A stretch of DNA of 64,000 nt from an archaeon GW2011_AR20 (GTDB lineage Archaea > Nanobdellota > Nanobdellia > SCGC-AAA011-G17 > GW2011-AR20): contig CP010426.1 in assembly GCA_000830315.1 (NCBI GenBank), positions 261,156-325,155 on the forward strand, read 5' to 3'. The position numbers were made by a program, and so were the translations under genes. This document shows, in pieces, positions 30,951-63,375 of this stretch. A model generated the notes under the pieces. That model did no database searches, was not told where the DNA came from, and saw nothing but the letters and a program-made list of their open reading frames with translations. The stretch's first letter is position 1, and each line of letters begins with the position of its first letter.

Positions 30951-32531
30951 ATGGCAGAAATAAAAGCATATGAATTAGCAAAGCAGCAACGCGAGATTAG
31001 CATCTCGGAATTTTTCTTGAAGAACAGGCATTTGCTTGGTTTTGATAATCCAACAAGAGCATTGATGATGGTTGTTAAAGAGGCTGTTGATAATTCTCTT
31101 GATGCTTGCACCGAAATGAAAGTTCTTCCTGAAATAAAAATTGAGATAAATCAAATTAATGAAAACAGATTTATAGTAATTGTCGAGGATAATGGTCCGG
31201 GAATTGTTAAGCAGCAGATTCCGAACATATTTGGTAAATTATTATACGGAAGCAAATTTCATTCAATGAGACAGTCCCGCGGACAGCAGGGAATAGGAAT
31301 TTCAGCAGCCGTACTTTATTCACAATTAACAACAGGAAAATCAACAAAAATTTATTCAAGGGTAAGCTCGAAAAGACCGGCACATTATTTTGAATTACAG
31401 ATAGATACGAAAAAAAACGAGCCTCATATTATAAAAGATGATGAAGTTAAATGGGATAAAGACCATGGGACAAAAATCGAGATTGAAATAGAAGGGAGAT
31501 ATTTGAAAGGAAAACAAAGCGTTGATGAATATGTAAAGGAAACCGCAATTGTTAATCCACATGCCACCTTTGTTTATGTAACGCCGGAAAAAGAAAAATT
31601 TGAATATAGGAGGGTTACAGAAGAGCTGCCGAGAGAAGCCAAAGGAATAAAACCACATCCTTATGGAATAGAGCTTGGGCAGTTAATGAAAATGTTGCAG
31701 GATACGAGGGCCAATACATTACAGGGGTTTTTGCAAAATGATTTTTCCAGAATTGGGCAGCAGACAGCACAAGAGATATGCAGTAAAGCAAAATTAAAGG
31801 CCGATAGAAAACCAAGGCAGCTTGAAAATAAAGAAATCGAATTATTGTTTAAATCGTTACAAGAAACTAAAATCATGGCCCCTCCCGGAGATTGTCTAAG
31901 CCCAATAACGGCAGAATTGTTAGAGAAAGGATTAAGAAAAGAGATTAATGCTGATTTTTACGCAACAGTTTCCAGAAGCCCGGTTGTTTATCGGGGCATG
32001 CCTTTTATCATTGAAGTTGGAATTGCTTATGGTGGGGAACTGGATAAAGAAGGGCAAATTAGATTAATGAGGTTGGCGAATAGGGTTCCGTTGCTTTATC
32101 AGCAAGGTGCCTGCGCAATTACAGAATCTGTTTCAGAAACAAGCTGGAAACCTTATGGATTAAATCAAAGCGGAAGTAACCTCCCAACTGGACCGGCAGT
32201 AGTTCTCGTTCATATTGCAAGCGTCTGGGTTCCATTTACGAATGAAGCCAAGGAAGCAATTGCGCATTATGATGAAATTATTAAAGAGATTAAGCTTGCA
32301 TTGCAGGAATGCGGAAGAAAATTAAGTATTTATATTCATAAGCACATCAAGGCAGCAGAACAACGAGAGAAAATAGACCTGTTTGAAAAGTATATCCCTG
32401 AACTGGCTGTTTCATTAAGTAATTTAACAGGTGATAAAAAAGAAATTTTACAGGATAGGTTACAGAAATTATTAAAAAAAGAGCTCCCATCCTTGGAAGC
32501 AGCAAATGGAGAAAATGGTAAAGAGAAATAA
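30951..32531 (+). CDS. top6B: DNA topoisomerase VI subunit B
   Basis: 526 residues, full length. The GHKL ATPase fold has VKEAVDNSLDACTE (N-box), EDNGPGI, and QSRGQQGIGISAAVLYSQ (G-boxes). The H2tH region and transducer domain follow, with the switch Lys in NQSGSNLPTGPAV-type sequence. With subunit A it makes a type IIB enzyme that relaxes and decatenates DNA. The end overlaps top6A by 26 bases. Confidence 0.97.
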   Translation: MAEIKAYELAKQQREISISEFFLKNRHLLGFDNPTRALMMVVKEAVDNSLDACTEMKVLPEIKIEINQINENRFIVIVEDNGPGIVKQQIPNIFGKLLYGSKFHSMRQSRGQQGIGISAAVLYSQLTTGKSTKIYSRVSSKRPAHYFELQIDTKKNEPHIIKDDEVKWDKDHGTKIEIEIEGRYLKGKQSVDEYVKETAIVNPHATFVYVTPEKEKFEYRRVTEELPREAKGIKPHPYGIELGQLMKMLQDTRANTLQGFLQNDFSRIGQQTAQEICSKAKLKADRKPRQLENKEIELLFKSLQETKIMAPPGDCLSPITAELLEKGLRKEINADFYATVSRSPVVYRGMPFIIEVGIAYGGELDKEGQIRLMRLANRVPLLYQQGACAITESVSETSWKPYGLNQSGSNLPTGPAVVLVHIASVWVPFTNEAKEAIAHYDEIIKEIKLALQECGRKLSIYIHKHIKAAEQREKIDLFEKYIPELAVSLSNLTGDKKEILQDRLQKLLKKELPSLEAANGENGKEK

Positions 32532-33600
32532 ATCTTCAGAAGAATTAAAAAATTTAGGACTAAAAGTAGTTAAGGATATTGAGAAAAATAAAAACCCTTC
32601 TGTTATTGTCCCAATAAGGGCTTTAAGCAATGTTATCTTCAATGAAAAAACAAAAACTTTGGAATTGGGAGATAAAACTTCGACAAGATATTTCTTCAAT
32701 GTTGCCCATGCTAAAAAATTCCTGCAAACTATTGAAGTAGCAAGTATAAGCAAAGATTTGATTAATGAAGAAAAACACGCAAGCTTAAGAGACGTCTTTT
32801 ACATGGCTAAGAGAACAATTCCTGGAACAAATGTTAATTTAGTTGACGAACAAAGTGAAAGCGATGATATTATTGAAGATTTAGAATTAATAACAGAAAA
32901 TTCAAGAGAGCAATTAAATGTTAATGCAAATAAGAATGGAAGCGTTGTTGGAAAAGTAACAATAGAAGATTCTGGAGATGTTATAAGATGGGATAAACTC
33001 GGATCAGGGGGATGGAGTATTCCAAGTAATGTTGAAGAAATTAAATTTAAGAAAGTAGACGCAAAATATATCATTTATATGGAAAAAGCAGCTGTTTGGG
33101 AAAGATTAAATGAAGATAAATTTTGGGACAAACAAAACTGCATTATAATAAGTTCACAAGGTCAGACAACTAGGGGAATAAGAAGATTATTGCAAAGATT
33201 GTATGAAGAGTTTAAACTTCCAATTTATGTCCTATGTGATTTTGATTCTTACGGATTTTATATTTATTCTGTACTTAAATATGGAAGTATCAATCTTGCA
33301 CATGCTTCAGAAAGATTAGCAATCCCAAGTGTAAAATATCTAGGAATCACATCAAATGATATAGAAAAATACGGCTTACAAAAACACCTAATTAAATTAA
33401 AAGATCATGATCTAGCTAGATTAAAACAAATTTCAGAATATGACTGGTTTAAAAACAACAAGCAGTGGCAGAAAGAATTTAAGGCTATGAAACAAAATGG
33501 TGCTAAAGCAGAAATCCAGGCTTTAAGTGCTCGAGGTATAACATTTATTTCTGAAAAGTACTTGCCGGAAAAAATTAAAAATAAAGATTTTATTGATTAA
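32506..33600 (+). CDS. top6A: DNA topoisomerase VI subunit A
   Basis: 364 residues. It is Spo11-like: LRDVFYMAKRTIPG carries the active-site Tyr, and the Toprim acidic motif is YVLCDFDSYGFYIY. The start at 32506 overlaps top6B; an ATG three codons later is equally possible. It makes the double-strand break in the topoisomerase VI reaction. A tRNA gene begins 47 bp after its stop. Confidence 0.97.
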   Translation: MEKMVKRNKSSEELKNLGLKVVKDIEKNKNPSVIVPIRALSNVIFNEKTKTLELGDKTSTRYFFNVAHAKKFLQTIEVASISKDLINEEKHASLRDVFYMAKRTIPGTNVNLVDEQSESDDIIEDLELITENSREQLNVNANKNGSVVGKVTIEDSGDVIRWDKLGSGGWSIPSNVEEIKFKKVDAKYIIYMEKAAVWERLNEDKFWDKQNCIIISSQGQTTRGIRRLLQRLYEEFKLPIYVLCDFDSYGFYIYSVLKYGSINLAHASERLAIPSVKYLGITSNDIEKYGLQKHLIKLKDHDLARLKQISEYDWFKNNKQWQKEFKAMKQNGAKAEIQALSARGITFISEKYLPEKIKNKDFID

Positions 33601-33646
33601 TTTATTTAGAAACCTTTTTAAAAGAATTTCTTATTTGTTTTAATAC

Positions 33647-33778
33647 GCCTCTCTAGCTCAGCCTGGTAGAGCACACATAGAAAATATGGCTCAGATGGCT
33701 GTTAACTAAACAGGATGGAGACCATGCGGTCATTTTCGTCAAGAAAACCGTAGGCAGGTTCAAATCCTGCGGGAGGCG
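33647..33778 (+). tRNA. tRNA-Asn(GTT) with three introns
   Basis: Acceptor GCCTCTC pairs with GGGAGGC, discriminator G; D stem GCTC/GAGC; T stem GCAGG/CCTGC. Removing 33675-33694 (20 nt, between 27 and 28), 33705-33720 (16 nt, 37/38) and 33732-33753 (22 nt, 48/49) leaves a 74-nt tRNA with stem CATGG/CCATG, loop CTGTTAA and variable loop CGGTC. Each junction is a bulge-helix-bulge cut after the second bulge base. The helices are GAGC/GCTC, CTGT/ATGG and GCGG/CCGT. The outer introns fold as CATA/TATG and TTTTC/GAAAA hairpins. Confidence 0.93.
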
Positions 33779-33896: not shown

Positions 33897-34595
33897 ATGA
33901 AATTTGACTTATCTAAATTACAACCTAACAACGAAATTGTGTTACCAGAAAAATCTAGTGAAGAATTGGCTGAAGAAACTGGGTTGCATATTGGAGATGG
34001 TACTATGAACTTTTATAAAAATCAGAATAAAATTAAAGGAAGTTATGCTTTAAGGGGCCATATATTAGATGATAAAGAACATTATAACAAAATCATAAAA
34101 CAACTTTATTTTAAGTTGTATAATTTGAAGGTTAGCTTAAGGGATATGCCAAAAGATGGAGTTTATGGGTTTCAAAAATGGTCCAATTCCTTAGTAAATT
34201 TTAAGCATAATATTCTGGGTTTAACATTAGGTAAGAAAATTGATATAAAGATACCAGAAATTTTTATAGAGAAAGAGGAATTTATCTCAAGCACAATCAG
34301 AGGTATTTTTGATACAGATGGTACGATTTATTTAGAACCAAAATATGGAAAATTTTATCCAAGAATAGAAATTGCAACAATATCAGAAAATTTAGGTTAT
34401 CAGTTAAATAATTTAATAAGGAAAATTGGATTAAGATCTACAATTTATTTAGAATTAGTGAAAAATCCTGGGTGGAATGATAAATATCATATAAATGTTC
34501 GTGGAGAGGAAATGCTAAATAAATGGATGCAAATCATCAATCCTCATAATCCTAAACACATTAAAAAATTTGAATTCTATATTAATAATTCTTAG
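33897..34595 (+). CDS. Free-standing LAGLIDADG homing endonuclease
   Basis: 232 residues. Two LAGLIDADG-type helices, LAEETGLHIGDGTM (about 23-36) and STIRGIFDTDGTIYL (about 132-146), each carry the catalytic acidic residue. So this is a single-chain double-motif enzyme. It cuts a long asymmetric site to promote its own spread. It lies alone between two triple-intron tRNA genes, not inside an intron or intein. It has a TATTTAAATAA box at about 33860-33870. Its cleavage site is unknown; neighbouring tRNA genes are candidates. Confidence 0.88.
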   Translation: MKFDLSKLQPNNEIVLPEKSSEELAEETGLHIGDGTMNFYKNQNKIKGSYALRGHILDDKEHYNKIIKQLYFKLYNLKVSLRDMPKDGVYGFQKWSNSLVNFKHNILGLTLGKKIDIKIPEIFIEKEEFISSTIRGIFDTDGTIYLEPKYGKFYPRIEIATISENLGYQLNNLIRKIGLRSTIYLELVKNPGWNDKYHINVRGEEMLNKWMQIINPHNPKHIKKFEFYINNS

Positions 34596-34632: not shown

Positions 34633-34753
34633 GGGGCTGTAGCTTAGCCTGGCTGGAGCACTCGACAATTAGGGTGAAACTGATAGCTAAGGTTAGAGAT
34701 CGAGAGATAAAAAAACTTACTCGAAGTCGGAAGTTCAAATCTTCCCAGCCCCA
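34633..34753 (+). tRNA. tRNA-Ile(GAT) with three introns
   Basis: Acceptor GGGGCTG/CAGCCCC, discriminator A; D stem GCTT/GAGC; T stem GGAAG/CTTCC. Introns are 34665-34678 (14 nt, 30/31), 34686-34698 (13 nt, 37/38) and 34707-34725 (19 nt, 45/46). Splicing gives a 75-nt tRNA with stem CTCGA/TCGAG, loop CTGATAA and the standard variable loop AGGTC. Junction helices are CACT/GGTG, CTGA/TTAG and CGAG/CTCG, each with the 3-base bulges cut after base two. Confidence 0.93.
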
Positions 34754-38420: not shown

Positions 38421-39749
38421 TTATTCTCCAAATTTTCTATTTCTTTCTAAAATATTATTTTTAGCTAATCTTAAATTCTTTACCTTTTTAGGATGTTTTA
38501 AATAAGGTTCTATTTTTAAGAGAAATTCGTAGAGAAAACTTTTTTTATTTAATCTTAAGAACCAACAATCTTTATTACTATAATAAGTTTTATCACCCTC
38601 AATTCTCGGTGTACCTTTTTCTGAACCCAAATACATCTTTGGACACTCTATTCCAATATTTATGAGTTTATTTCTAATATAATTTAAATATTTTTTATTT
38701 TGATTAACAACACTATAATACGCCATACCTTTACTAATGCCTATTGTTCCTTCGGCATCCGTAAAACCAGCTAAAAAAGCAAAGAAATTTTCCTTATCTT
38801 TAAGAAGATCTTCAGGAATTTTTTTGCTTAATAAAAATTCAAATGTTCTATTAAGATAGCATTCCATTTGCACTTTGCCTTTCTTATTTGGCTTACTAAT
38901 CCAAACTTGACCATAATCTTTAAACAAATTCTTTATTAGTTCTATTTGTTCTTTTATAGTGCTTCCACAATCAACATGAATTGTTTCACTATTTTCCCAA
39001 ATTTTTCTTACTCTTAAATCCCCTAATCTAAATCCAATAAGATAAGCTTTTTCTCTTAAATTTCCGCTAAAATCATTCTTTTGATAAATCATATGGGCAA
39101 TTGCCCTATTCCTTATCATTCCATATTCTCTTAATTTTCTATGCACCGTGCTTCTACTGTAACCATACCTTTTCTCTATTTCCCATGTTGATAATCTTTT
39201 ATTTAGATAATATTTTTCTAAAAATTCTTTAGAAGGAATTTTTGAATTTAACTCATGCGTGTTTCTTCTTTCAATATTGTATTGTTTTAATCTTTTCCAA
39301 ATAGTTGCTTGACAAGTACCATAAATATCAGCAATTTCATAGGTGTTTAACTTGTTTATTAAATATAATTTTTCTAACTCTTCTTTACTTATTTCTATTT
39401 TTTTACAATTAGAAAACCTATTAGTAATTTTATATTTTCTAAGTCTATTTAAGATAGTTGATATTTTACAATCATATTTTTTAGCTATTTTTCTTAATTT
39501 AAATTTTTTATTTATAGATAAATCATAAAGTTCACTTTTATCTATAAAAATTTCCGGTTTATTTACAAATAACCTCATAGATTGTGATTGATTCCTTATT
39601 CTTATATTATATTTTCTTAACCAATAAGCGATTGTATTTAAGGAGCATTTATATCTTGATTTTATCTCAGATAATGGCTGTTTTCTTTTTATATAAAGTT
39701 CTCTTAAAATCTCTTTTGGAATATGTATTTTGATTTTCCCACCTTTCAA
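38421..39749 (-). CDS. LAGLIDADG endonuclease with four HTH repeats
   Basis: 442 residues from a TTG at 39749 (no ATG fits until well inside). Residues about 8-215 hold four tandem helix-turn-helix units of about 45 residues, each built like LSEIKSRYKCSLNTIAYWLR, LRKIAKKYDCKISTILNRLR, TYEIADIYGTCQATIWKRLK and TWEIEKRYGYSRSTVHRKLR. The C-terminal part carries AYLIGFRLGDLRV and FFAFLAGFTDAEGTIGI, the two LAGLIDADG helices. The HTH array should lengthen the recognised DNA. It follows a small RHH gene by two bases and precedes metG. Confidence 0.85.
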   Translation of the reverse strand: MKGGKIKIHIPKEILRELYIKRKQPLSEIKSRYKCSLNTIAYWLRKYNIRIRNQSQSMRLFVNKPEIFIDKSELYDLSINKKFKLRKIAKKYDCKISTILNRLRKYKITNRFSNCKKIEISKEELEKLYLINKLNTYEIADIYGTCQATIWKRLKQYNIERRNTHELNSKIPSKEFLEKYYLNKRLSTWEIEKRYGYSRSTVHRKLREYGMIRNRAIAHMIYQKNDFSGNLREKAYLIGFRLGDLRVRKIWENSETIHVDCGSTIKEQIELIKNLFKDYGQVWISKPNKKGKVQMECYLNRTFEFLLSKKIPEDLLKDKENFFAFLAGFTDAEGTIGISKGMAYYSVVNQNKKYLNYIRNKLINIGIECPKMYLGSEKGTPRIEGDKTYYSNKDCWFLRLNKKSFLYEFLLKIEPYLKHPKKVKNLRLAKNNILERNRKFGE

Positions 39750-39971: not shown

Positions 39972-40057
39972 GCAGTAATAGTACAATGGTTCGTACTGGA
40001 GCTTCCCAATAACAAAGGAAAGAGCTTCGGATCCGGGTTCGATTCCCGGTTACTGCA
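39972..40057 (+). tRNA. tRNA-Gly(CCC) with one intron
   Basis: Acceptor GCAGTAA/TTACTGC, discriminator A; D stem GTAC/GTAC; anticodon stem GGAGC/GCTTC; loop TTCCCA plus A; T stem CCGGG/CCCGG; four-base variable loop GGAT. The 14-nt intron 40009-40022 sits at 37/38. Its bulge-helix-bulge has the perfect helix TTCC/GGAA. Confidence 0.9.
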
Positions 40058-40060
40058 TAA

Positions 40061-40148
40061 AGCCCTGTGGTCCAGTAGGTCAAAGACGGCAGGCTCTGGT
40101 TTATTAAAGAGAAACCTGCAAACGGAAGTTCGAATCTTCCCGGGGCTA
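40061..40148 (+). tRNA. tRNA-Gln(CTG) with one intron
   Basis: Acceptor AGCCCTG/CGGGGCT, discriminator A; anticodon stem GCAGG/CCTGC; loop CTCTGG plus A; T stem GGAAG/CTTCC. The 14-nt intron 40100-40113 at 37/38 uses the perfect helix CTCT/AGAG. It starts three bases after tRNA-Gly, so the two are one transcript. Confidence 0.9.
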
Positions 40149-63161: not shown

Positions 63162-63251
63162 TTAAGCTTTAAAATTTTACTTCTTTTTTATTTTTACCTA
63201 GCTTTTCACCGATAGGTGTTTAAAAGTTAAGGTCACAAGTTTATCTATAGT

Positions 63252-63272
63252 GTGTTAATCAAAAATTAACAC
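63252..63272 (+). other. Hairpin upstream of the template repeat
   Basis: GTGTTAAT, loop CAAAA, ATTAACAC: a perfect 8-bp stem about 100 bases before the template repeat. It is not followed by a T-run, so a structural element of the template RNA is as likely as a terminator. The rest of 63162-63375 shows no gene; a smaller CACC-GATA-GGTG hairpin is at 63207-63218. No accessory avd-like gene is present there. Confidence 0.45.
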
Positions 63273-63375
63273 CATGAAATTCAACATTTTTAGTTAGTAA
63301 CTATAAAAGATCCTTGGGAAAGTCTTTCGTGAATACTAGAAATGTGGTGCTTATTAGTAGATAAGCTATACCGAA

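Follow-up and report, generated by a model that had tools for sequence, protein, structure and literature searches.

A tRNA-Asn gene with three bulge-helix-bulge introns

The 132-nt gene described here is, we are confident, a functional tRNA-Asn gene of a woesearchaeote, whose precursor would carry three bulge-helix-bulge (BHB) introns that the tRNA-splicing endonuclease and the RtcB ligase would process to a 74-nt tRNA. It lies on contig CP010426.1 of the archaeon GW2011_AR20, within a 64,000-nt stretch of DNA that was analysed as a whole and is called the window below. The gene and its candidate promoter element have the following coordinates in the window:

33614..33623 (+), candidate archaeal TATA box CTTTTTAAAA, approximately 24-33 nt upstream of tRNA-Asn (seen in the sequence)
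33647..33778 (+), tRNA-Asn(GUU) precursor gene, 132 nt, three predicted BHB introns (splice solution, BHB chance tests, blastn)
33647..33674 (+), exon 1, positions 1-27 (splice solution)
33675..33694 (+), intron 1, 20 nt, at 27/28; central helix GAGC x GCTC; bulges AC^A and AG^A (solver, shuffles, comparison)
33695..33704 (+), exon 2, positions 28-37 with anticodon GTT (splice solution)
33705..33720 (+), intron 2, 16 nt, at the canonical site 37/38; central helix CTGT x ATGG; bulges TA^A and AG^A (solver, shuffles)
33721..33731 (+), exon 3, positions 38-48 (splice solution)
33732..33753 (+), intron 3, 22 nt, at 48/49; central helix GCGG x CCGT; inner helix TTTTC x GAAAA; bulges TC^A and AG^G; no outer helix (solver, shuffles)
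33754..33778 (+), exon 4, comprising the T arm, the 3′ strand of the acceptor and discriminator G73 (splice solution)

The splice solution comes from a solver that enumerates BHB-bounded inserts (two 3-nt bulges around a 4-bp central helix, the cut following the second base of the bulge), removes every combination of them and scores the resulting cloverleaf. The combination of 20-, 16- and 22-nt introns ranked first among 96, and its product is a 74-nt tRNA with anticodon GTT in which every stem is paired, giving a perfect cloverleaf: GCCTCTC TA GCTC AGCCTGGTA GAGC A CATGG CTGTTAA CCATG CGGTC GCAGG TTCAAAT CCTGC GGGAGGC G. The first-pass annotation had placed a tRNA-Asn gene at 33647-33778 with introns of the same three lengths and cuts at 27/28, 37/38 and 48/49, and had predicted that their removal would yield a perfect 74-nt tRNA; our independent splice-and-fold search returned exactly these boundaries and this product.

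At all three junctions, 3-nt bulges flank a central helix in which four of four pairs form when G-U is allowed, and each intron begins with A and ends with AG. The annotation had further held that the BHBs could be drawn exactly, and although the junctions themselves were reproduced, this wording proved too strong, since two of the central pairs of intron 2 are G-U (C-G, U.G, G.U, U-A) and intron 3 lacks an outer, exon-side helix. The strict hBHBh′ form is thus not attained throughout, intron 3 taking the relaxed HBh′ form and the inner helix of intron 2 having only two pairs; for non-canonical introns, relaxed forms are regarded as acceptable.

When the inserts were shuffled one by one in place, an equally good BHB at the exact junction turned up in 0 of 20,000 trials for intron 1, 111 of 20,000 (0.0056) for intron 2 and 1 of 20,000 (5e-5) for intron 3. 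None of 400 versions of the gene with a shuffled middle part could be spliced to a cloverleaf of equal quality. Neither ARAGORN nor the Rfam tRNA model called a gene here. By blastn, the window gene is the sole full-length tRNA-Asn match in the genome (829,411 bp, single contig), and neither family search nor blastn found a second tRNA-Asn gene, so splicing of the window gene is presumably essential for the cell. All exons stand in order within 132 nt, which makes a split tRNA an unnecessary assumption. Upstream, AACCTTTTTAAA, resembling the candidate TATA box, also precedes tRNA-Asn at the relatives' loci L045 and L104, and a scan for bacterial-type promoters and terminators returned nothing exceeding chance. 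A search of phage records found no similar DNA.

Splicing enzymes encoded in the genome

The tRNA-splicing endonuclease is represented by one detected gene, encoding a 190-aa alpha-type protein that combines PF01974 and PF02778 in a single ORF. Its closest PDB match is 3iey chain A (the chain B of this entry is NEQ261), followed, among single-domain enzymes, by 1a79_A, and the FR-Y-D/E, H and RKK motif regions align with these matches. Across the genome, the PF01974 and PF02778 profiles, which a diverged beta subunit could escape, recovered no second subunit, and Pfam profiles found neither an epsilon2 three-unit enzyme nor a beta subunit. Given that the cutting of non-canonical introns has been linked to the (alpha-beta)2 and epsilon2 endonuclease types (PMC4033280), the single alpha-type gene points to either an undetected second subunit or an unusually permissive enzyme; a single-subunit-type endonuclease, if so, would challenge the accepted link of enzyme type to intron position.

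An RtcB ligase gene is also present (G000:C1 approximately 108969-107587, minus strand, loci L128/L129), and its reading frame is broken at two points, between CMPDGHW and GYGFP and between GIGFD and INCGMRLL. Each gap is a 32-nt insert with a BHB at its bounds, the removal of which restores the frame, so the joining enzyme appears to need BHB splicing itself.

BHB splicing of the tRNA-Asn precursor is very likely. A 132-nt transcript would form BHB structures at 27/28, 37/38 and 48/49, the endonuclease would cut every 3-nt bulge behind its second base, and RtcB would join the exons into the 74-nt tRNA-Asn(GUU). That this splicing takes place in the cell, and in what order, we infer from the DNA. 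Collectively, the perfect spliced cloverleaf, the absence of any other detected tRNA-Asn, the encoded endonuclease and RtcB, and the BHB introns of the orthologues make a functional three-intron gene the best reading.

Two other accounts of the gene were weighed. The tRNA-Asn could be real with one boundary drawn differently, intron 3 being 20 nt long (33733-33752) and leaving a 7-nt variable region, or the gene having two introns and an unusual variable arm. In favour of the shorter intron is its 4-bp Watson-Crick central helix, together with the missing outer helix of the 22-nt form; the longer intron, in turn, restores a 5-nt variable loop, CGGTC, as in the orthologue of genome G003, scores higher in the solver and has an exact junction that is rare among shuffles, and we therefore judge a shifted boundary to be improbable. 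Threefold interruption and the silence of ARAGORN and Rfam might instead suggest a decaying, non-functional copy, an account to which we give hardly any credence, as every stem of the spliced product pairs, the searches turned up no further tRNA-Asn, and different genera have kept the locus with its exons intact. The pseudogene was accordingly rejected on the single copy and the perfect fold, and we continue with the functional three-intron gene.

Introns across the tRNA genes of the genome

Beyond what the annotation had noted, the genome is rich in multi-intron tRNA genes, in some of which the predicted introns exceed three, and a homing-endonuclease gene stands at the tRNA-Asn locus. Splice solutions were obtained for 44 tRNA genes. 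Of these, 14 lack introns, 20 have a single predicted intron and six have a pair; Asn and Ile(GAU) have three each, Leu(UAA) four and initiator Met five. Thus ten genes carry at least two predicted introns, non-canonical sites being among those used. The predicted introns number approximately 47 and span 11-56 nt with a median of 19 nt; this total is an estimate, because the multi-intron solutions have more freedom than that of Asn and the 56-nt insert of tRNA-Tyr may be two nested introns. Single junctions of the iMet, Leu and Ile solutions are each improbable by chance (P 0 to 0.011). The two genes with the following coordinates illustrate the pattern:

34633..34753 (+), tRNA-Ile(GAU), predicted introns 34665-34678, 34686-34698 and 34707-34725 (14, 13 and 19 nt) (Rfam tRNA 42 bits, splice solution, per-junction tests)
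G000:C1:500638-500822 (+), initiator tRNA-Met at L118, five predicted introns (20, 22, 14, 28 and 24 nt) (splice solution)

The remark in the annotation that the introns of tRNA-Asn are near the lower limit holds only in a relative sense, as they are not exceptionally short for a genome whose predicted introns reach down to 11 nt. Its statement that three-intron tRNAs are rare and known mainly from Thermoproteales agrees with published surveys, in which the archaeal maximum is three introns per tRNA gene and Thermoproteales average 0.84 per tRNA gene (PMC4033280, PMC8450103). The record is held by Pyrobaculum calidifontis, with 71 introns in 46 tRNA genes (PMC8450103, PMC4033280). No report of tRNA introns in Woesearchaeota or of four-intron archaeal tRNA genes was found in the literature searched, subscription journals lying outside its scope.

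Several other features of the tRNA set were observed. The genes for tRNA-Pro(AGG) and tRNA-Leu(AAG) (L024, L025) have a genomic A34, unusual for archaea; no G34 version of tRNA-Pro or of tRNA-Leu(AAG) was seen in the genome, which contains one deaminase-like ORF (G000:C1:251137-251541, minus strand). AUA is read by a modified CAU tRNA in most archaea; this genome has a tRNA gene with anticodon TAT (Ile) (L013, G000:C1:595072-595177, minus strand) with a 32-nt canonical intron. In the window, tRNA genes Gly-CCC (39972-40057) and Gln-CTG (40061-40148) bear one 14-nt intron each, and Rfam matched an RT-16 RNA at 63197-63374 (+, 75 bits).

A conserved locus with changing introns

The surroundings of the tRNA-Asn gene are shared with relatives. 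Two neighbours define the locus together with tRNA-Asn and tRNA-Ile:

32506..33600 (+), topoisomerase VI subunit A, the upstream neighbour that anchors the conserved locus (homology)
33897..34595 (+), free-standing LAGLIDADG_3 homing-endonuclease-like gene, 232 aa (Pfam PF14528, 41 bits, cut-off 22.5)

The order topoisomerase VI subunit A, tRNA-Asn, LAGLIDADG_3 ORF, tRNA-Ile recurs, whole or in part, in G054, G009, G003, G013, G016 and other genomes, and the relatives of the topoisomerase subunit in named records are Nanoarchaeota/Woesearchaeota. Within this frame, the introns of tRNA-Asn vary. According to the solver, G003 has two (27/28 and 37/38) and lacks intron 3; G054, G027 and G004 have two each (30/31 and 37/38); G013 and G044 also have two each (D-loop and 30/31); G009 has three or four, and G038 and G031 have none. 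An intron at 27/28 is found not only in the tRNA-Asn of the window and of G003, but also in that of the distant G086 and in the tRNA-Tyr of the same genome. The BHB of this intron pairs in all four genes that bear it, with a compensatory change of A-U to C-G in the inner helix and two alternative fifth pairs; by pair count, 78 of 500 shuffles were as good, so the covariation is non-significant for four sequences, which are too few.

In three relatives, G016 (L104), G017 (L105) and G095 (L107), the anticodon loop of tRNA-Asn is instead split by a group I intron, between CTGT and TAA, with RF00028 scores of 84.8, 84.2 and 78.9 bits, respectively, all above the gathering score. Host genes at the 13 group I loci were read from the flanking sequence. 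In G016, an orthologue of the LAGLIDADG gene of the window follows the group I-bearing tRNA-Asn. The intron of G095 contains an ORF with HNH-like motifs recognised by eye and unscored by Pfam. A group I match also lies on the minus strand of the genome of the window itself, at 664120-664335, where a group I intron in the LSU gene of CP010426.1 has been reported at 664815-664111 (PMC6125680). As in that survey, related group I introns, often accompanied by LAGLIDADG genes, occur in Woesearchaeota and in further archaea; unlike the 39 archaeal introns of the 2018 survey, all of which lie in rRNA genes (Nawrocki et al. 2018, PMC6125680), those of the three relatives reside in the tRNA-Asn anticodon loop.

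LAGLIDADG genes beside tRNA genes

Orthologues of the LAGLIDADG gene of the window occupy the same tRNA locus in relatives, and the proximity to tRNA genes is general. Among the 20 LAGLIDADG loci retrieved for the order, 17 have a solved tRNA gene no more than 126 nt away, compared with approximately 2% expected if placed randomly, a comparison in which the loci share ancestry. The neighbouring tRNAs include Asn, Ile, Thr, His, iMet, Leu, Arg/Cys, Lys/Ser and others, and locus L063, additional to the 17, adjoins a tRNA-His with a weaker acceptor. Strong as it is, the association is incomplete, as the LAGLIDADG ORF at L122 has no tRNA neighbour within 126 nt in the census and the four-intron tRNA-Leu(UAA) has no LAGLIDADG neighbour.

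At L118, the C-terminus of a LAGLIDADG ORF (G000:C1:499696-500376, minus strand) runs into tRNA-Ser(GCU) at the 5′ end of that gene. The five-intron initiator tRNA gene is overlapped at its 3′ end by the 3′ end of another LAGLIDADG ORF, which lies on the strand opposite to the initiator tRNA. An additional copy of the tRNA-Ser 5′ end was seen near 500540 (minus strand), upstream of the ORF that runs into tRNA-Ser(GCU); this extra fragment could be a split half, a duplication or an insertion scar. In the window, a 442-aa ORF at 38421-39749 (minus strand) has helix-turn-helix repeats and a weak LAGLIDADG_3 match, and lies 222 nt from the Gly-CCC and Gln-CTG tRNA genes.

Origin of the introns

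How the introns arose is a separate matter that does not compete with the splicing explanation. Free-standing LAGLIDADG endonucleases may drive tRNA disruption by cutting intron-less alleles, after which repair would spread introns or leave intron-bearing alleles as the sole state that escapes cutting, a proposal that we place a little short of an even chance. It is consistent with the 17 of 20 loci near tRNA genes of many different kinds, with the location of the most disrupted tRNAs (Asn, Ile, iMet, Ser-GCU), which adjoin or overlap LAGLIDADG ORFs, and with the group I intron in the tRNA-Asn of G016 beside the orthologous gene. Nevertheless, some tRNAs beside LAGLIDADG genes are intron-less, tRNA-Leu(UAA) has four predicted introns and no such neighbour, the homology of the loci deprives them of independence, and tRNA genes attract insertions in general.

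This last property leads to the competing proposal, to which we grant nearly half the probability, that LAGLIDADG genes sit at tRNAs only because these are common insertion sites for mobile DNA, and that the introns spread independently, for example when intron RNA is copied from one tRNA to another, a route that has been suggested for Thermoproteales. The similar intron at the same site in tRNA-Asn and tRNA-Tyr of one genome argues for such independent spread, as do the same intron in the tRNA-Asn of G086, where no LAGLIDADG gene is apparent in the 3-kb flank, and the lack of LAGLIDADG neighbours for Tyr, Leu(UAA) and other multi-intron genes. Incidental insertion, however, fits poorly with the very tight and recurrent adjacency of LAGLIDADG genes and tRNAs and with the ORF that runs into the 5′ end of tRNA-Ser. 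A link between the LAGLIDADG gene of the window and the arrival of its introns is only conjectural, and stands about level with incidental hitch-hiking.

Discussion

By mechanism, the introns described here are archaeal BHB introns, and tRNA-Asn is a further multi-intron tRNA outside Thermoproteales. What is new is that some genes have more than three predicted introns, that the endonuclease seems to be of a single-subunit kind, and that BHB and group I introns share the occupancy of one tRNA site beside a homing-endonuclease gene. As in Thermoproteales (PMC8450103, PMC4033280), short BHB introns occupy canonical and non-canonical sites, two or three per gene, with a genome-wide load and with similar introns in different tRNAs; the present system differs in belonging to another phylum, Woesearchaeota, in the single alpha-type endonuclease detected, in its predicted four- and five-intron genes and in the LAGLIDADG genes beside tRNAs. 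With Nanoarchaeum equitans and ARMAN (PMC4033280), it shares the small DPANN-type archaeal host, non-canonical and multiple tRNA introns and an endonuclease nearest 3iey chain A. Unlike in those organisms, no split tRNA was identified here and no beta subunit or epsilon2 three-unit enzyme was found. Free-standing homing endonucleases of the phage T4 Seg/Mob type are encoded outside introns, adjoining their presumed target. The LAGLIDADG gene of the window is likewise located outside introns and beside its presumed target, but it and its relatives reside in cellular archaeal genomes, have tRNA genes as presumed targets and belong to the LAGLIDADG family.

The tRNA-Asn gene extends extreme tRNA disruption from the hyperthermophilic Thermoproteales to Woesearchaeota. 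Furthermore, an orthologous tRNA-Asn site beside one endonuclease family is occupied, depending on the genome, by BHB introns, by a group I intron or by no intron at all. This opens a long-standing question to direct test: how archaeal tRNA introns originated, and whether BHB introns took the place of group I introns. A bolder suggestion, which we hold tentatively and would sooner doubt than accept, is that the tRNA genes of Woesearchaeales are battlegrounds of free-standing LAGLIDADG endonucleases that select for any insertion destroying their target, such that a group I intron came to fill the tRNA-Asn slot in some genomes and two to four BHB introns in others, and intron number rose past the known limit in Leu-UAA (four) and initiator Met (five). 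If true, these genes would offer a living test of whether BHB introns replaced, or descend from, group I introns.
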